The notes beneath the pieces were generated by a model. It worked only from the letters and a program-made list of their open reading frames with translations, was not told the origin of the DNA and ran no database searches. Source: a virus. Taken from it: a stretch of DNA of 32,772 nucleotides. A program made the position numbers and the translations under genes. Position 1 is the first letter of the stretch. Each line of letters starts with the position of its first letter. Shown here one piece after another: positions 5,687 to 31,533 of the stretch. The stretch spans positions 1 through 32,772 of the IMG/VR virus record IMGVR_UViG_3300042691_025458; one strand, 5' to 3'.

Positions 5687-6577
5687 ATGACGACCGGAAC
5701 TTCCAATCTTCCTGAACTGCTTTGGCCTGGCATCAGCACGATCTGGGCCGACACCTACCGCCGGTATCCGCCGCTCTGGAACCGCATGCTCATTCTTCGT
5801 CGGTCCACCAAGGCCTTCGAGAAGGAGCAGGGTGTGACCGGCTTCGGCCTGGCCGGCGCCAAGACAGAGTCTGGCAGCGTGCCTTTCGTTGATATGCTCC
5901 AGGGCTATCAGCGTGAGTACGTCAACCTGACCTACGGTCTCGGCACGATCATCACGCGGGAGTTGATGGATGACGAGCAGTACAACGTCATCAACAACGT
6001 CCCCCGTATGCTGGCCGAGTCCATGCGTCAGACGGAAGAGACGATCTCGGCGTCTGTGTTCAACCTCGGCTTCAGCACGATGGTTGGCGCGGATGGCGTG
6101 TCGTTCTTCAACTCGGCGCACCCGAATGTGCGTGGCGGCTCGCAGCGTAACATCCCCGCTGTGGCCTCCGACCTTACCCAGGCCTCCCTGGAGCAGGCGT
6201 ACATCGACATCCACGACTGGCAGGACGATTCGTCCCTCAAGATCAATCTCATGCCAGAGAAGATCCTGGTTCACCCGTCCAATCGGTTCGTCGCCGAGAA
6301 GATCCTGGGGACCAAGTTCGCCGTGGGAAGCGCTGACAACGACATCAACCCGATGGCCGGCCAGCTCGACCTGATCGTCAATCCGTTCTTCACGGATCCC
6401 GACGCCTGGTTCGTGCTGACGAACGCCAAGGCTGGTGCCACGTTCTATCGGCGCCGCAACGCTGAGATCTCCCGTGACAACGAGTTCGACACGGAGAACC
6501 TCAAGATCAAGACGACGGCTCGCTTTGCCGTTGGCGTCACCGACTGGCGCTACGGCTACGCTTCGGCCGGCGCCTGA
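5687..6577 (+). CDS. Major capsid protein (HK97-type fold likely)
   Basis: ATG at 5687 is preceded by AGGGAGG at 5672-5678. At 296 aa the length fits a short HK97-like major head protein without a long delta domain. Features match the Mu gpT-like and related capsid families: an N-terminal helix with P-P-L-W-N-R-M, then a G-x-V-P-F-V-D-M...Y...Y-G-L-G-T-I-I-T-R-E-L-M-D-D segment. Further on are F-F-N-S-A-H-P-N near the centre, L-M-P-E-K-I-L-V-H-P followed by the A-E-K-I-L-G region, and W-F-V-L-T-N near the C-terminus. It is the last gene before a hairpin, as expected for a gene needing high expression. Assignment is by motif and synteny. Confidence 0.9.
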   Translation: MTTGTSNLPELLWPGISTIWADTYRRYPPLWNRMLILRRSTKAFEKEQGVTGFGLAGAKTESGSVPFVDMLQGYQREYVNLTYGLGTIITRELMDDEQYNVINNVPRMLAESMRQTEETISASVFNLGFSTMVGADGVSFFNSAHPNVRGGSQRNIPAVASDLTQASLEQAYIDIHDWQDDSSLKINLMPEKILVHPSNRFVAEKILGTKFAVGSADNDINPMAGQLDLIVNPFFTDPDAWFVLTNAKAGATFYRRRNAEISRDNEFDTENLKIKTTARFAVGVTDWRYGYASAGA

Positions 6578-21396: not shown

Positions 21397-21721
21397 TTTG
21401 GTTCTCCATCAATTGCATCACCTTTTTCGTCGCCTCGGGCGAAAGACAGTCCACCGTCTCGTCATGCCAGTCGATCGCCGCGATCGAAAACGGCTTCACG
21501 GTCTGCCCCGTCTTTTCAAGCAGATGCCGCAGGATCGACTCCATGTCCTCCCTCAATTGCTGCTTCCTTTCCTCGAGGGTTGCAATCGAGTGACCAAGCT
21601 CGTCCATCGCGGCGTTAAGCGCCCTGAGCGTAAGCTTGTGGAGCGGCGCCAGTTGCGAGAGGTCGTAACGGGTTCCGTCTGCCATCGCCTGTTCTGCGAT
21701 CAATTGTGCCGGCGCCTTCAT
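21389..21721 (-). CDS. Hypothetical helical protein, 110 aa
   Basis: ATG at 21721 overlaps the Erf gene's stop (ATGA). The product has a central coiled-coil-like helix (L-E-E-R-K-Q-Q-L-R-E-D-M-E-S-I-L-R) and a C-terminal half with W-H-D-E-T-V-D-C-L. No family is recognised. It lies between the Erf annealing protein and the SSB-like protein in one operon, so it may serve the recombination complex, but only position suggests this. Confidence 0.7.
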   Translation of the reverse strand: MKAPAQLIAEQAMADGTRYDLSQLAPLHKLTLRALNAAMDELGHSIATLEERKQQLREDMESILRHLLEKTGQTVKPFSIAAIDWHDETVDCLSPEATKKVMQLMENQNG

Positions 21722-22356
21722 GAGTTGAACTCCGCGATCCGCTTGTCCTTCTCGGCCATGAGGGCGTCATAGCCCGCTGCGCTGGCGGTCTGGACGAGTT
21801 TGAGCGCCTCCTTCTCCTTGAGCAGGATCTCGGCCACGGAGATCGCGTCAGGTGCCTCCTGGATCGCCGTCTTGAGGCGCACAAACTCCTCGCGCGCCCC
21901 AGGAGCCTTCTGTTTCTGCGGGGCCTTGTCCTTCACCGCCTCGACCTTGTTGCCATCGGCGGCATTGGCGTCGTCGTCCTCTTCTGCCGCAAGGCCAAAG
22001 AAGCTGGACACTTGATAGCGGCGGGCGAAGGTAATGATCGAACCCATTTCCTGCATCTTCACGACCTTGGCTTGGTCGAGCGGCATACAGGTGCTGATCA
22101 TCCCGCCGGCACTATGACAGAGCCGCAGGCACATCACTATGCCCTCCGGTGTGCGCTCGAGCGTTTGCGTGAGCGACAGCCCGTTGTCGGACAGCGGCTT
22201 GCGGATGCCGTCAAGGATCGAGTCCAGCGTCGCATAGCTGAACTTGTACGTCCCGCGATCGGACTTCACGGTGACTTCCCGGTTCTTCACCGGGTTCTGC
22301 ATCTGCCCCTGCGCTTTGGCCAGGGCGGCATACAGGGCTGCGTTCGGATCGGTCAT
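21718..22356 (-). CDS. erf-like: Erf-family single-strand annealing protein (PF04404)
   Basis: ATG at 22356 is preceded by AAGGGGA, and the gene lies one base after the exonuclease. The 212-aa product shows the Erf-family pattern. Residues 37-64 hold Y-K-F-S-Y-A-T-L-D-S-I-L, then I-R-K-P-L-S-D-N-G-L-S-L-T-Q. Residues 105-131 hold G-S-I-I-T-F-A-R-R-Y and an S-S-F-F-G-L-A-A-E-E-D-D-D run. Erf proteins form rings on ssDNA and anneal complementary strands. Together with the upstream exonuclease this forms a Red-like recombination pair. The C-terminal third (E-A-P-D-A-I-S-V-A-E-I) is a separate helical region. Confidence 0.9.
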   Translation of the reverse strand: MTDPNAALYAALAKAQGQMQNPVKNREVTVKSDRGTYKFSYATLDSILDGIRKPLSDNGLSLTQTLERTPEGIVMCLRLCHSAGGMISTCMPLDQAKVVKMQEMGSIITFARRYQVSSFFGLAAEEDDDANAADGNKVEAVKDKAPQKQKAPGAREEFVRLKTAIQEAPDAISVAEILLKEKEALKLVQTASAAGYDALMAEKDKRIAEFNS

Positions 22357-22357
22357 C

Positions 22358-23158
22358 TCATTCCCCTTCGGTGATGGTGATGGCGCCGCGCTTGTTGCGG
22401 CTGGCCTGGATCCCGTGGCCTTTCGCGAGCTTCACGTCTTCCGCAATCAGCTTCTTCAATCCGGCGGCTGCTTTGTCGTAGCGCTTCGCGGGCTCCCTCG
22501 TTGCAATCCACTCGGCAGCGAGGTCACCCCACTCGTTGCTGCCGGTCATGTCTACAACCCGCGTGGGAGGAGGCGGCGCCAGCAGGGTCGGAGCGTCAGA
22601 CGGCGGCATCCCCAGCCGCACGCACTCCCAGAAGTCGTACAGGGTGCGTTGCAGTTCGACCGCGTACAGATCGTCGTACTCGACCTCCTGATAGTCCCAA
22701 GTGTTCCCCATGATCACGGTGAGGTATGCCCGACGCAGACCAGTCACGATCATGTTGTGATGAAGCTGAGGCTGATACCGTGCGGTTGCTTCTGCCAGCG
22801 ACGTGCGCTCGTTCGTGTGCTTGGCCTCGAGGACAGCGTCTGCCCCGTCAACCTCAACGATCGCATCCAGCGTGCAGGACATCCACCCGTTATCGTGGGT
22901 GATACGGTGCTGCACCGATCGCAGTTCGCCGCCCGTTTTGCGGCAGAACCAAGCCATGTTGAAGGACTCGGTGAACGAGCCCAGTTGAACCTGGAACACG
23001 TCGTCCAGGTTATCGGGCTCGGCAAGGCCGCACTTGACCTTCCAGAGCTTCATACGCTGTTCGTCAGTGCCGTTGATAATGATGTTCGAATCGGACCCAC
23101 CCAGGGTTTTGCGACGCGCTTCATGCCATTCCGGCGGATGCTGCTGAATAATCGTCAT
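22358..23158 (-). CDS. YqaJ-family viral exonuclease (lambda-exo-like)
   Basis: ATG at 23158 has GGGAGATGGACG before it; a farther ATG at 23245 would overlap more of the replication-like gene. The 266-aa product has W-H-E-A-R-R-K-T-L-G-G-S-D at 11-23, the family's N-terminal signature. The nuclease core follows, with L-D98 and E111-A-K113 (D-x(n)-E-x-K) and a Q-P-Q-L-H-H-N-M segment near 129-136. These match PF09588 nucleases, which degrade one strand of duplex DNA 5' to 3'. Pairing with Erf supports double-strand break repair or genome recombination. Confidence 0.88.
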   Translation of the reverse strand: MTIIQQHPPEWHEARRKTLGGSDSNIIINGTDEQRMKLWKVKCGLAEPDNLDDVFQVQLGSFTESFNMAWFCRKTGGELRSVQHRITHDNGWMSCTLDAIVEVDGADAVLEAKHTNERTSLAEATARYQPQLHHNMIVTGLRRAYLTVIMGNTWDYQEVEYDDLYAVELQRTLYDFWECVRLGMPPSDAPTLLAPPPPTRVVDMTGSNEWGDLAAEWIATREPAKRYDKAAAGLKKLIAEDVKLAKGHGIQASRNKRGAITITEGE

Positions 23159-23819
23159 CGTCCATCTCCCTTTTGCTGTGGACAGGCTCGTAATTATCAG
23201 ATGATTCCGGCGCGGTAAACAGGGAATTGCGACTTTGTCGCACAATTCCGGTCCGAGTTTCGTGCCGATCTTTCGCGCTAATCCAGTGCGACTTCTCGAT
23301 TGTCAGTGCGCCAGGGGCGCGCTCATCGTGAAACGCATCTGCGACAGCAGCGTCCCAAGCTCTGTTTTCGATGCCGTCGTACCCGTGCCGCAAGCACGAC
23401 CACAGTTCGGGCTCAGTGCAGTTGAGCCGGCGCGCCGCCTCTTGGATGCGGCCTGAGTGCGTCTCTCTGGTCTGCCGGATAAGGCGCTCTTTGATCTCTC
23501 TGGCCAGTTTGTTCCGTGCCAGCCAGTCCAGAGCCGCCGAATCGACCTTGTGCGGACCGGCGTCGAGATCGGCTGAATTGTGGTCCTCGTCCAGCCAGCG
23601 CTGCTGGTTCAACCAGGTCTGAGCGTGCGCAATGTACTGGATCTCAGACCCGGCCTTTGCGGCGGCATACCGTTTCGCGCCATCGATGATGACCTCTGGA
23701 GAGATCTTCATCTTGTTGACGACCTTGTCGAACGCCTTTTGGGCCGCGCCTTTCCCGACGCGTCTAGGGTACGCCCGCCAGAAGTCTTCAAAAGGGTCGT
23801 TGGTCAAAGAGAGCTTCAT
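23121..23819 (-). CDS. Replication-associated protein (primosome / initiator-like C-terminal domain)
   Basis: ATG at 23819 has GGGAGG six bases upstream; ATG at 23840 lacks that spacing. The 232-aa product begins with F-E-D-F-W-R-A-Y-P-R-R-V-G-K-G-A-A and A-F-D-K-V, then Q-Y-I-A-H-A-Q-T-W-L-N-Q-Q-R-W. This W-x-x-Y-P-x-K/R...T-W-L-N-x-x-R-W pattern is the C-terminal domain found in many phage replisome organisers and DnaT-like proteins. The remaining half is charged and not assigned. It overlaps the exonuclease start by 38 bases. It could also be a helicase loader; the motif does not separate these. Confidence 0.7.
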   Translation of the reverse strand: MKLSLTNDPFEDFWRAYPRRVGKGAAQKAFDKVVNKMKISPEVIIDGAKRYAAAKAGSEIQYIAHAQTWLNQQRWLDEDHNSADLDAGPHKVDSAALDWLARNKLAREIKERLIRQTRETHSGRIQEAARRLNCTEPELWSCLRHGYDGIENRAWDAAVADAFHDERAPGALTIEKSHWISAKDRHETRTGIVRQSRNSLFTAPESSDNYEPVHSKREMDDDDYSAASAGMA

Positions 23820-24078
23820 ACTCTGCCTCCCGTGCTTCAATCTCCATGGGATGGTTCCAATAGCCGTGGCGGATCAGTCCAATGGCGTAGCGCCAAAGGA
23901 AACCCACAGCCCCATAACGTTCGATCTGCCTGATATGCGCCTGTTCGTGAGCAACGAGACGGTGCGGGGCTGGCCAGTGTAGGTAGTAGGCCGCGCGCCA
24001 GGGCATGGTGATCGCCTGGAAGCCGGTGGCGCGGAGCCACCAGCGAAGGACTAGCGGTGCGGGGCGGTGGCGGGTCAT
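23788..24078 (-). CDS. Small HEXXH zinc-metalloprotein-like protein
   Basis: ATG at 24078 overlaps the previous stop (ATGA). The 96-aa product contains H-E-Q-A-H (residues 44-48), the HEXXH motif of zinc peptidases, followed by I-R-Q-I-E-R-Y-G and W-R-Y-A-I-G-L-I-R-H. Downstream, N-H-P-M-E-I-E-A-R-E could supply the third ligand. I recall this short HEXXH...P-x-E-x-E-A family in phages, with no known substrate. The N-terminus is Trp/Arg-rich with no signal peptide. Whether it cleaves protein or only binds metal is not known. Confidence 0.75.
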   Translation of the reverse strand: MTRHRPAPLVLRWWLRATGFQAITMPWRAAYYLHWPAPHRLVAHEQAHIRQIERYGAVGFLWRYAIGLIRHGYWNHPMEIEAREAEYEALFDQRPF

Positions 24079-25964: not shown

Positions 25965-26053
25965 GGTTTACCCCCGTTATCCATGGCAGATGACTCCACA
26001 GAAAGCATTTCTTCAAGGCCTGTGAGATTCGAGCAGGGAGGGGAATTACTCAT
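25961..26053 (-). CDS. Micro-gene, 30 aa, unknown
   Basis: This gene is too short for routine gene calls, but its ATG at 26053 follows GGAGGGAGGACG, a near-ideal site. It overlaps the upstream gene (ATGA at 26050-26053) and the downstream gene (ATGA at 25961-25964). The product begins M-S-N-S-P-P-C-S-N-L-T-G-L-E-E and ends G-G-K-P. It has no membrane segment. The tight coupling at both ends supports its being real. The function is unknown. Confidence 0.6.
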   Translation of the reverse strand: MSNSPPCSNLTGLEEMLSVESSAMDNGGKP

Positions 26054-26640
26054 CGTCCTCCCTCCTCCGGATACGGGTCTCTCCCGTCCTCGATCTCGCG
26101 GCAGACGCGGCGTAGTTCGTCGGCCTGAACGGCCATCTCGTCTGCCCCTACCGCCGACGCTGCTACCTGCCCCGCCGTCAGCAGCGTCCACGCCACCGCC
26201 GCCCTCGCCGCCCTTGCCGCCTCCGCCGCCTCCGCCGGCCACGCCGCCGCCCTCTGCACCGCCGCCTTTGCCGTCCACGCCGCCTTTGCCGTCCACGACG
26301 CTTCCGACGCCACCGCCTCCGCCGCCTCCCTCAACTCGGTGCTGCTGCTTTTGCCTCTCGCATTCCGCTCTGCAACGTCGAGGGCTTCGAGACTTCGGGG
26401 GTCGGTCATGAGGTGCTGGACTTGCCGCGCGCACCACACAGCGTACAGCCGGATCTCTCGATCCCTGCCTTCGACCGCCCGGAGGCACCAAAGCGCGTCA
26501 TCAAGCCCGTTACTGTCCAGGACCGTGGTGATTGCCAGCGGCTCGTCGTCGGGTTGCGTCTTGCCCAGGTGGCGCAGAAGCGTTTCCCACCCATCTCGGC
26601 AGGGGCCATGCGCGCGGATTGCGTTCAAACTCGTTTTCAT
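26050..26640 (-). CDS. Conserved phage protein with Ala/Trp-rich repeat tail, 196 aa
   Basis: ATG at 26640 has GAAAGGGG before it. The N-terminal half has A-I-R-A-H-G-P-C, W-E-T-L-L-R-H-L-G-K, L-D-S-N-G-L-D-D-A-L-W-C-L-R-A and R-L-Y-A-V-W-C-A-R-Q-V. I have seen this conserved domain in several phage and prophage proteins. The C-terminal half is an Ala/Trp-rich repeat region, including an 18-bp perfect tandem duplication encoding W-T-A-K-A-A twice. Some relatives carry immunity-protein names, but I cannot confirm that role. It ends in the shared P-E-E-G-G-R junction. Confidence 0.75.
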   Translation of the reverse strand: MKTSLNAIRAHGPCRDGWETLLRHLGKTQPDDEPLAITTVLDSNGLDDALWCLRAVEGRDREIRLYAVWCARQVQHLMTDPRSLEALDVAERNARGKSSSTELREAAEAVASEASWTAKAAWTAKAAVQRAAAWPAEAAEAARAARAAVAWTLLTAGQVAASAVGADEMAVQADELRRVCREIEDGRDPYPEEGGR

Positions 26641-26840
26641 GCTTTCCCCTTTCTCAAACGATGGCACTCAGGGAATCCCAAGTGCATGCCTGGTGGCAAT
26701 GTTTCCTTGATCTCACGGTAGAGCAGCCGGCATTCGGCCACGGTCTCGACCTCCGCGATGAGAACGACGCAGTCCCGTTCGCTGACCGGCACGTTGACCG
26801 GGCAAGCCAGGACGAGCAGAGCAAAGACGCTCGGGTTCAT
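26637..26840 (-). CDS. Small secreted or membrane-anchored protein, 67 aa
   Basis: ATG at 26840 overlaps the 33-aa gene's stop (ATGA) and follows GGGGGACTCA. The product starts with a hydrophobic segment (M-N-P-S-V-F-A-L-L-V-L-A-C-P-V-N-V), which could be a signal peptide, lipobox-like anchor or TM helix. A Cys-containing region follows, with C-V-V-L-I-A-E-V-E-T-V-A-E-C and F-P-E-C. Disulfides in the periplasm would fit. The function is unknown; a spanin-like role is possible but no proline-rich outer part is seen. Confidence 0.6.
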   Translation of the reverse strand: MNPSVFALLVLACPVNVPVSERDCVVLIAEVETVAECRLLYREIKETLPPGMHLGFPECHRLRKGKA

Positions 26841-28224: not shown

Positions 28225-28508
28225 ATCAATCCCCGGTTTCTGAGAGCCTGAGCCTCTACAGCGCGAAACTTTCGAGCGGCATGAAGTCCCCGTTCCTGTT
28301 TCACGATTGCCTCAACCTGTTTTGCAAGGGAGGAGTAGCAGTACCCTCGCGCGGTGTAGATGCCAGCAAGTCGATTGCCCCAGCGAAGGATGGCGAGCTT
28401 GGCAAACCGATCGGGCTTAGTTCCTCCCTTCAGCCCAGCAATGCGGCACCAGTACATCAGCGCTTGTTTCGGACTGAAACTTGACCGCTTGATCATCTTT
28501 TCGCTCAT
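28221..28508 (-). CDS. Hypothetical basic protein, 95 aa
   Basis: ATG at 28508 has GAGGAGGAGTAG before it, a strong site, and it is the first gene of the tightly packed set after the non-coding stretch. The product is basic: S-F-S-P-K-Q-A-L-M-Y-W-C-R-I-A-G-L, then a helical charged region (A-K-Q-V-E-A-I-V-K-Q-E-R). No family is recognised. A role in DNA binding or regulation is possible from charge but not supported by a motif. Confidence 0.7.
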   Translation of the reverse strand: MSEKMIKRSSFSPKQALMYWCRIAGLKGGTKPDRFAKLAILRWGNRLAGIYTARGYCYSSLAKQVEAIVKQERGLHAARKFRAVEAQALRNRGLI

Positions 28509-28565
28509 CTACTCCTCCTCTACCTCGTTGAGACCAGACTGCTTTTGGGGTGGTGTGCGGGCAGA

Positions 28566-28598
28566 CTCCGACCATCCGTAGAAAGTCGGAGCTTTTTT
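28566..28598 (+). terminator. Intrinsic terminator, + strand
   Basis: CTCCGAC (28566-28572) pairs with GTCGGAG (28585-28591) around a 12-base loop, followed directly by CTTTTTT. This is a clear intrinsic terminator for + strand transcripts, while all surrounding genes are on the - strand. It may stop antisense transcription entering the gene array. Confidence 0.7.
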
Positions 28599-28660
28599 CT
28601 GCTTTTGGGTCCCATCTGGAGCCGCCGGAGCAGATTGCATCAGTCACCGTTGAGCCTGTG

Positions 28661-28873
28661 TTAGGCAATGGGCCGGGGCGGCGATCCGATGTGATGGCAA
28701 CTACCCCACCACACCCCGATTAAGACTGTCTCCATATCGCGGTGGCAGAACCGGACGATGCAATTCGCCCAGCCTGCGCGCCTCTTTTTCAAGGCATCAT
28801 TCTGGCTTCGCTTGAGCGCCGTTCCTGCTGTTTTGCCCATGCGGGCGCAGCGGCGCAGCCGATAGACGGCCAT
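28661..28873 (-). CDS. Possible small basic protein, 70 aa (weak)
   Basis: ATG at 28873 opens a frame giving a basic peptide (Y-R-L-R-R-C-A-R-M-G-K and C-I-V-R-F-C-H-R-D), but no good ribosome-binding sequence precedes it. It starts 31 bases after the palindrome at 28905-28924, so if real it would be the gene most directly controlled. Its lack of conserved features and weak start leave it doubtful. Confidence 0.25.
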   Translation of the reverse strand: MAVYRLRRCARMGKTAGTALKRSQNDALKKRRAGWANCIVRFCHRDMETVLIGVWWGSCHHIGSPPRPIA

Positions 28874-28904
28874 GTCGCGCTAGCCTTGCAATGGGACAGA
28901 TCAC

Positions 28905-28924
28905 GTGCCAAATTGCGTTGGCAC
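28905..28924. promoter_or_regulatory. Operator-like perfect palindrome GTGCCAA-N6-TTGGCAC
   Basis: Arms of seven bases match exactly, separated by ATTGCG. A 20-bp two-fold symmetric site is the usual binding unit for dimeric HTH repressors. It lies between a regulator gene (29028-29477) and the gene array it precedes, so the regulator is the first candidate for its ligand. Binding itself is inference. Confidence 0.55.
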
Positions 28925-28989
28925 TTGACCCGCCTCTGTGAAAGGCTGGGTCCGCGACACAGGGGCTTGCCAGCCCGCTGGGTCAGGGA

Positions 28990-29015
28990 GCCGGGGAGGC
29001 GCGAACCTCTCCGGC
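28990..29015 (-). terminator. GC-rich stem-loop after HTH regulator gene
   Basis: A 10-bp stem with one mismatch (arms 28990-28999 and 29006-29015) around CGCGAA follows the regulator's stop by 12 bases on the - strand. No T-run follows, so it may be a weak terminator or an RNA end-stabiliser. It is not a tRNA: no cloverleaf or CCA end is seen. Confidence 0.4.
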
Positions 29016-29027
29016 CCCCAAACCTTC

Positions 29028-29477
29028 CTACTCTCCGACAGGCTTGTCAAGCGGCTCGAGCACCAGCCGATGGCCCAGGGCGTTGGCGACCGCTTGCAAG
29101 CTCAGGAACGTAGCGTTCCCCTTGCGGCACCAATTCCGGTAGCTCCCTGGGTGAACGCCGGCCCGAAAGAAAATATCCCTGATGTTCCCTGTCCGCTGGC
29201 TCTCAGCCATGCAGAGCTTCAGAACTTGCGAGAGCGTCTTATCGACCCTCGGGTCTGGCTCGGTGAGGTTATGGGCGCCATCTTTCTGCTTTCCCCAAGC
29301 GCGAACATCAGCCTCGAGGACGCGGTACTGCTTCTTCCCCCGGTGTTGGACCCACTGCGAGGCGACGCGCCCTGTTTTAGCCAGGCGAGCGATATGCGAA
29401 GGGCTTGTGTTGGCGATCCACGCGGCGGTCTTGGTGTTGATCCAGCCCTCAGCGGACTGGTCTGAACGCATCGTCAT
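29028..29477 (-). CDS. Regulator with two HTH-like regions
   Basis: ATG at 29477 has AAGGGGGAT before it; ATG at 29471 is an in-frame alternative. Residues 10-61 (G-W-I-N-T-K-T-A-A-W-I, S-P-S-H-I-A-R-L-A-K-T-G and Y-R-V-L-E-A-D-V-R-A-W) look like an excisionase or MerR-type helix-turn-helix. Residues 80-137 (L-S-Q-V-L-K-L, F-F-R-A-G-V-H-P-G-S-Y and L-S-L-Q-A-V-A-N-A-L-G) look like a Cro/XRE-type domain. The fusion of two DNA-binding modules in 149 aa is unusual. It probably controls the neighbouring operator regions. It overlaps the DnaA-like gene by 29 bases. Confidence 0.7.
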   Translation of the reverse strand: MTMRSDQSAEGWINTKTAAWIANTSPSHIARLAKTGRVASQWVQHRGKKQYRVLEADVRAWGKQKDGAHNLTEPDPRVDKTLSQVLKLCMAESQRTGNIRDIFFRAGVHPGSYRNWCRKGNATFLSLQAVANALGHRLVLEPLDKPVGE

Positions 29478-29772
29478 GCTCGATCCCCCTTTTGATTTCG
29501 TGATGAAGCTTGAGCAACACCTTGTCTGCATTGACCATCGCGATCGAGTAGTTCACGACCGCTACGCTGCGGCCAAACATGGCTGCGATGCCGCGCTGGG
29601 TCGTCGTGCGGATCATGTCGTAGGCCAGGGCAATGGCCACGGCTCGGACCCGCGCGATCTCGGTGGTTCGGCGCTTGGACCGCAGATCGTTCGCGGTAAC
29701 ACCGAATCGTTTCTCGATATCGGCGGCGATCACCCGCCAGGCCTTCTCCTCCGGCGACTGAACGTCATGCAT
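29449..29772 (-). CDS. DnaA domain IV-like DNA-binding protein
   Basis: ATG at 29772 is preceded by GAGGTGG and overlaps the previous gene by 8 bases. The 107-aa protein has A-A-D-I-E-K-R-F-G-V-T-A-N-D-L, K-R-R-T-T-E-I-A-R-V-R-A-V-A-I-A-L and I-A-A-M-F-G-R. This is the layout of the DnaA C-terminal domain (PF08299), where helices bind DnaA boxes. The usual R-D-H-S-T-V is changed to R-S-V-A-V-V. It lacks the ATPase part, so it cannot be a full initiator. It may bind host or phage origins, or act as a repressor. Confidence 0.75.
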   Translation of the reverse strand: MHDVQSPEEKAWRVIAADIEKRFGVTANDLRSKRRTTEIARVRAVAIALAYDMIRTTTQRGIAAMFGRSVAVVNYSIAMVNADKVLLKLHHEIKRGIEHDDAFRPVR

Positions 29773-29992
29773 TTGAAGCCACCTCGCTCTGCCGCGCAGC
29801 GATGACGCCCGCGAGCACGGACGCCAATTTCGCGGCATTTTCCTCGGTCAGCATGATCGTGAAGTCGTCGATTTCAACGACCATCGCATCGCGCGCAGCG
29901 GTTTTGTCCCCGGTGTCGAGGGGGTAGACGTACCGCGCGGCGATGCTGTTTGGGCGCGGAAACAGGAAATTGCAGGAAAATCGTGTAATCAT
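29765..29992 (-). CDS. Hypothetical protein, 75 aa
   Basis: ATG at 29992 follows AAAAGGGAGTTTTCTT. The product begins M-I-T-R-F-S-C-N-F-L-F-P-R-P-N, has T-A-A-R-D-A-M-V-V-E-I-D-D-F, and ends with a hydrophobic Ala/Val helix (A-K-L-A-S-V-L-A-G-V-I-A-A). The strands and the final helix suggest a compact domain. No function is recognised. Confidence 0.65.
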   Translation of the reverse strand: MITRFSCNFLFPRPNSIAARYVYPLDTGDKTAARDAMVVEIDDFTIMLTEENAAKLASVLAGVIAARQSEVASNA

Positions 29993-31455: not shown

Positions 31456-31487
31456 AAAGAACCCCTTTCCTTCATTAGCCTCTTCAG

Positions 31488-31524
31488 TACCCGCATAACG
31501 GGTAGACCGGGGTGATGCCCCGGT
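31488..31524. repeat. Two consecutive hairpins between small genes
   Basis: TACCCG-CATAA-CGGGTA (31488-31504) and ACCGGGG-TGATG-CCCCGGT (31506-31524) stand back to back, separated by one base. They lie between the genes at 31534 and 31455 on the - strand. No T-run follows on that strand, so they may stabilise mRNA ends or act as weak terminators. On the + strand the second is followed by TTTCGG. Confidence 0.45.
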
Positions 31525-31533
31525 TTCGGCTTG

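Follow-up and report, generated by a model that had tools for sequence, protein, structure and literature searches.

Proteins made of DnaA domain IV alone (Bac_DnaA_C, PF08299; here DnaA_C) are already known in phages. Such a protein without the AAA+ ATPase is found as gp52 (106 aa) of the Octadecabacter phage DB2, in the Pelagibacter phages HTVC010P, Greip, Skadi and HTVC204P, in the Rhizobium phages RHph_N28_2 and TM3_3_3, in the Bradyrhizobium phages ppBeUSDA76-2 and ppBjS10J-1, and in Microcystis and Polaribacter phages. These genes sit in replication or early-type regions, often near genes for single-strand DNA annealing proteins, nucleases and organizers. The available text of one report states that 'DnaA' is present in all HTVC010P-related phage genomes (PMC6811365). 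In the literature that we searched, which included few subscription papers, we came across no experiments on phage proteins that consist of DnaA domain IV alone.

We searched a phage collection with the E. coli domain fragment and obtained 65 records, including some bacterial contamination. From 60 listed matches we examined 17 regions, omitting bacterial contaminants, unannotated faecal contigs and near duplicates. These regions encode DnaA_C proteins of 106–191 aa and, in AmM-1, a 396-aa fusion, which depositors annotated as DnaA-like, replication initiator or hypothetical. In several other phages, genes for replisome organizers are immediate or close neighbours of the DnaA_C gene. In Alphaproteobacteria, PF08299 matched in 136 of 142 genomes. 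Most of these matches are to full-length DnaA; about a dozen additional copies in short frames were among the matches listed, and 11 short-frame matches were examined.

DnaA domain IV is also found outside DnaA in the Y1 transposase fusions of TnpA_REP subclass 2.1. There it forms a C-terminal extension of the transposase, unlike the protein described below, and the authors suggest, in the part of the paper available, that it may have evolved towards a new target (PMC6006769).

A stand-alone DnaA domain IV-like gene in a virus record

The DNA analysed here (the window) is the full 32,772-base IMG/VR virus record IMGVR_UViG_3300042691_025458, positions 1–32,772. The genes needed for the argument are the following.

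5687–6577: major capsid gene (PF25209, E 1.8e-19)
21718–22356, minus strand: Erf-like single-strand annealing protein (phrog_2324, E 2.7e-35)
22358–23245, minus strand: RecE-like/lambda-type exonuclease (phrog_434, E 5.2e-37)
23121–23840, minus strand: replisome-organizer-like protein, C-terminal part only (phrog_270, E 1.8e-23)
29028–29477, minus strand: 149-aa protein with two weak helix-turn-helix matches (HTH_17, phrog_66)
29449–29772, minus strand: stand-alone DnaA domain IV-like protein, 107 aa (Pfam, 41.5 bits; fold match; purifying selection)
29765–29992, minus strand: 75-aa protein of unknown function, directly upstream of the DnaA_C gene (reading frame)

The record around the 107-aa protein is viral, with capsid, adaptor (SU10-type), exonuclease and Erf-like genes. 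It also encodes a holin and an M15-type endolysin, and a DNA methyltransferase gene belongs to the same leftward block as the annealing protein, exonuclease and organizer-like genes. The organizer gene lies 5.6 kb from the DnaA_C gene, and residues 13–143 of its product align to positions 175–313 of the 383-position phrog_270 profile.

The DnaA_C gene starts with an ATG at 29772, preceded by GAGGTGG, and stops at 29449. The coordinates in the earlier note were exact, and we add the strand. The stop of the 75-aa gene overlaps its start (ATGCATGA), and the 149-aa gene begins within its 3′ end, after AAAAGGGGGA. The 149-aa product matched HTH_17 in a Pfam profile search at E 3.8e-4, under the cut-off, and the excisionase/regulator family phrog_66 in a PHROG search at E 5.1e-6. 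The position is operon-like, and the DnaA_C gene is probably expressed early.

Three further observations were made in the window. A 205-aa reading frame (26050–26667, minus strand) is rich in alanine over a long low-complexity stretch. The match to a type II hammerhead ribozyme at 31470–31531 (minus strand) scored 34.8 bits against a gathering cut-off of 37 (E 1.4e-4). The surrounding DNA is 77% identical over 65 nt to contigs of a related type (G002, below), but an Rfam search of locus L202 gave no match at E 0.05. Lastly, a 3,884-base contig from an actinobacterial MAG (L140) carries a capsid piece 90% identical to that of the window over 80 residues; it is probably a misbinned phage contig.

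The 107-aa protein has a predicted DnaA domain IV fold

Residues 15–78 of the protein align to positions 4–67 of the 69-position PF08299 profile (E 1.4e-10; gathering cut-off 31.5), and the Pfam search gave no second domain above the cut-off. No PHROG family matched at E 0.1. The NCBIfam DnaA model TIGR00362 matched only over positions 348–418 of 437, where it scored 30.9 bits (cut-off 343.9); the suggestion that the ATPase is missing thus held up. Judged from its sequence, the protein lacks the AAA+ ATPase and is not a full-length DnaA replication initiator. It is short and has DnaA_C as its sole recognised domain, as do the phage stand-alone proteins.

The earlier note had proposed structure prediction as a check on the fold. 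An AlphaFold2 model built from two sequences was discarded (pLDDT 57.5, with a single over-long helix). With five members of the lineage described below (alignment A5), pLDDT was 72.6 and pTM 0.64. In Foldseek, all eight matches with a probability of at least 0.99 were DnaA chains, none of them under E 0.001. VIA-align gave Z scores of 13.7 with the M. tuberculosis DNA-binding domain (3pvp) and 13.4 with that of E. coli (1j1v); the first unrelated chain reached 4.6. The rmsd of the predicted fold to these two bacterial domains was 1.6, and helices 59–66 and 71–81 occupy the expected place of the helix-turn-helix. The Pfam match and the top structural matches, all DnaA, confirmed a DnaA domain IV fold, by a prediction of moderate confidence.

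The recognition loop lacks the D-H-T residues

The altered signature loop reads as the earlier note had described: in an ungapped alignment, FGRSVAVVNYS stands opposite FGGRDHTTVLHA of E. coli DnaA. We used the same alignment, with E. coli numbering taken from 1j1v (374–467), to map the DNA-contact positions 399, 423, 432–435 and 438–439, as given in the available text of PMC5043019. Only two of the eight are kept, R432 (R68) and the minor-groove arginine R399 (R35). The other six are changed (P423 to Q59, D433 to S69, H434 to V70, T435 to A71, L438 to N74 and H439 to Y75), so that D433, H434 and T435 of the D-H/R-T/S motif are absent. The lineage alignment also allows a three-residue deletion in the loop, so the change may be read as substitution or deletion; the D-H-T residues are missing in either alignment. 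The protein resembles bacterial DnaA domain IV in its predicted fold and minor-groove arginine, and differs from bacterial DnaA in these contacts and in having no domains I–III.

In E. coli, the T435M change at one of these positions makes DnaA defective in binding to the DnaA box (PMC5742627, available text), and the box preference of the 107-aa protein very probably differs, as had been supposed.

The named phage proteins all retain a D-H/R-T/S/A-T/S motif, unlike the lineage of the window. In a census outside this lineage, D-H/R was kept in all 46 other distinct DnaA_C domains (phage stand-alone, chromosomal stand-alone and full-length DnaA), although searches with PF08299 or the E. coli sequence favour the motif and could miss motif-less relatives elsewhere. 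The repeat rows L187, L200 and L201 were counted once, and L188, a locus with an earlier score of 22.4 bits and no profile match, was left out.

The gene is under purifying selection in a motif-less lineage

A sister contig (G001) encodes a 96% identical protein, with mostly the same gene order nearby. The two DnaA_C genes differ at 7, 1 and 27 first, second and third codon positions, respectively (dN 0.025, dS 0.507, dN/dS about 0.05). The gene is real and under strong purifying selection, so the loop change is not decay.

Searches with the capsid and with a DNA element (next section) added further members: G002 (with copies G211 and G213), G208, G206/G207 and G209. The lineage thus comprises the six types found, all without the D-H-T motif. 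The loops of the further types (LGRARHNSAV, GGRHHSFAV, NRKSGHCIT and GMTAHGSAS) are all different. Close relatives of the 107-aa protein numbered zero in the annotated phage collection, even at E 10, and zero in the genome contigs searched. PF08299 matched in 3 of 50 capsid-related virus records searched, drawn from 80 such records. One phage of the capsid group (G055, locus L171) has a DnaA_C gene that keeps the canonical motif, and the protein encoded after it looks GcrA-like by eye; GcrA is a cell-cycle regulator type of Alphaproteobacteria. The motif-less lineage is a divergent variant of the known stand-alone proteins.

In G208, G206/G207 and G209, the DnaA_C gene follows a gene for a small protein whose C-terminal pattern resembles, by eye, that of the 75-aa protein. 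The 149-aa helix-turn-helix gene is not directly after it in G208, G206 and G209. The organizer-like proteins of G002 and G206 align over the same stretch of phrog_270 as that of the window.

A conserved structured element lies downstream of the DnaA_C gene

28500–29050, minus strand: full conserved element, about 545 nt (window, sister, G208, G206/G207)
28872–29032, minus strand: 5′ domain of the element, four hairpins (covariation; covariance-model match of 163.6 bits)

The element lies between the 149-aa gene and position 28508 and contains no conserved reading frame. Every one of the six lineage types carries it on the strand of the DnaA_C gene, shortly after that gene; in G209 it begins at the DnaA_C stop. 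Its DNA is 97% identical to that of the window in the sister, 91% in G208 and 82% in G206/G207, and it is present in part in G002 and G209. From 28560 to 28739, 180 of 180 bases are identical to the sister, against 85–89% in the neighbouring genes; the element is conserved at the DNA level above these genes. We also noted that it is followed in the sister by an HNH endonuclease gene (L002, 7268–7618), a place taken in the window by an unrelated 95-aa gene, and that in G208 a gene between DnaA_C and the element has a start similar, by eye, to that of the 205-aa frame.

Single-base gaps and different frames in the relatives spoke against a coding function, and as the reading frame is not kept we treated the element as non-coding. 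Its first 160 nt are predicted to fold into four hairpins. Compensatory changes were seen in 10 of 38 pairs, against 3.5 in shuffles (0 of 500 reached 10) and 0–2 when the structure was slid, in a small set of six sequences from which the structure itself was derived. The covariance model was applied to 62 loci out of more than 220; it found the element in full in nine of these sources, all of this lineage, and in none of the other DnaA_C phages searched. An Rfam search with the element gave no match. It is apparently undescribed and could act as an origin, be transcribed as a non-coding RNA or form a structure in a 3′ untranslated region.

DnaA boxes are not enriched

There was no exact DnaA box (TTATNCACA) in the window or in the sister. 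Sites within one mismatch numbered 10 in the window, against 20 expected from shuffles, and 16 in the sister, against 28; as the shuffles ignore coding constraint, we read this deficit as no enrichment and not as avoidance. An origin in the form of a DnaA-box cluster was thereby ruled out, so any origin marked by the protein would be of another kind. A repeat search around the DnaA_C and organizer genes gave two- or three-copy families of the chance type, with no iterons and no operator-like family near the DnaA_C gene, and GC skew had no sharp turn at this gene. Neither approach located a phage origin or binding site. That the 107-aa protein marks the phage origin, as the earlier note had offered, is possible.

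Possible roles of the 107-aa protein

Tentatively, with a confidence somewhat short of an even chance, we propose a phage-specific DNA-binding protein that tags the phage replication start and recruits the replisome organizer. In this view the protein is DnaA domain IV alone, encoded by the phage and probably made from the early (minus-strand) operon, with the minor-groove arginine, fold and helix-turn-helix kept but the recognition helix rebuilt. Since this helix is rebuilt, the protein would bind a phage-specific sequence instead of DnaA boxes. It would mark the point where replication of the phage begins and attract the replisome organizer (23840–23121), and host helicase and primase would be loaded afterwards. 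The organizer has no N-terminal part, the usual place of the DNA-binding domain in such proteins, and the detached protein could supply what is missing. Some phage DnaA_C proteins are also annotated as replication initiators by their depositors. Against this proposal, the searches for an origin or binding site located none, the organizer gene is 5.6 kb away, and in other phages, for example at loci L018 and L020, the neighbouring replication proteins have N-terminal parts. A role in transcription control would account just as well for the overlapping helix-turn-helix gene. A split initiator cannot be the rule among DnaA_C phages, as several of their organizers have N-terminal parts.

Transcription control is the nearest rival, and we consider it rather unlikely: DnaA domain IV would serve as an ordinary helix-turn-helix factor, made together with the 149-aa protein, and regulate early or middle phage genes. 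Host DnaA itself doubles as a transcription factor. The starts and stops overlapping with the 75-aa and 149-aa genes, the resemblance of the 149-aa neighbour to excisionase/regulator families and the GcrA-like protein encoded after the DnaA_C gene in G055 all agree with such a role, but the repeat search found no operator-like family nearby, and the 149-aa gene is not the next one in three other types. Competition with host DnaA, blocking host replication, had been put forward in the earlier note on this DNA. In the form of competition at DnaA boxes, with host replication blocked or re-timed, it is poorly supported, and we regard it as very improbable. The same fold and the conserved minor-groove arginine would permit it. 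However, six of the eight contacts are changed, including T435, whose replacement by M impairs box binding in E. coli; the other five types also lack D-H-T, whereas all 46 census domains keep D-H/R, and the lack of an exact box in the window further argues against it.

It is also improbable, if slightly less so, that the 107-aa protein acts on the downstream element or is controlled by it. The element would then be a phage non-coding RNA or a structure in a 3′ untranslated region, with the protein as its RNA-binding or autogenous partner. Their constant order on one strand in six of six types, the covarying base pairs and the confinement of the element to this lineage among the DnaA_C phages searched would fit such a partnership, but the recognition loop differs greatly among the members whereas the element hardly varies, and the two may just be carried together. 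RNA binding is not known for DnaA domain IV. In a wider form, a DnaA domain IV freed from DnaA boxes and a structured RNA (or RNA-like origin element) downstream would make up a phage-specific DnaA-fold/RNA module controlling replication or early expression, which we hold to be a long shot. The linked element is a candidate new phage RNA or origin.

If our preferred reading, a phage-specific DNA-binding protein at the replication start, is right, phages would retain the DNA-binding fold of DnaA while altering what it reads. It would also call for caution against regarding every phage Bac_DnaA_C gene as a DnaA-box binder or a replication initiator.
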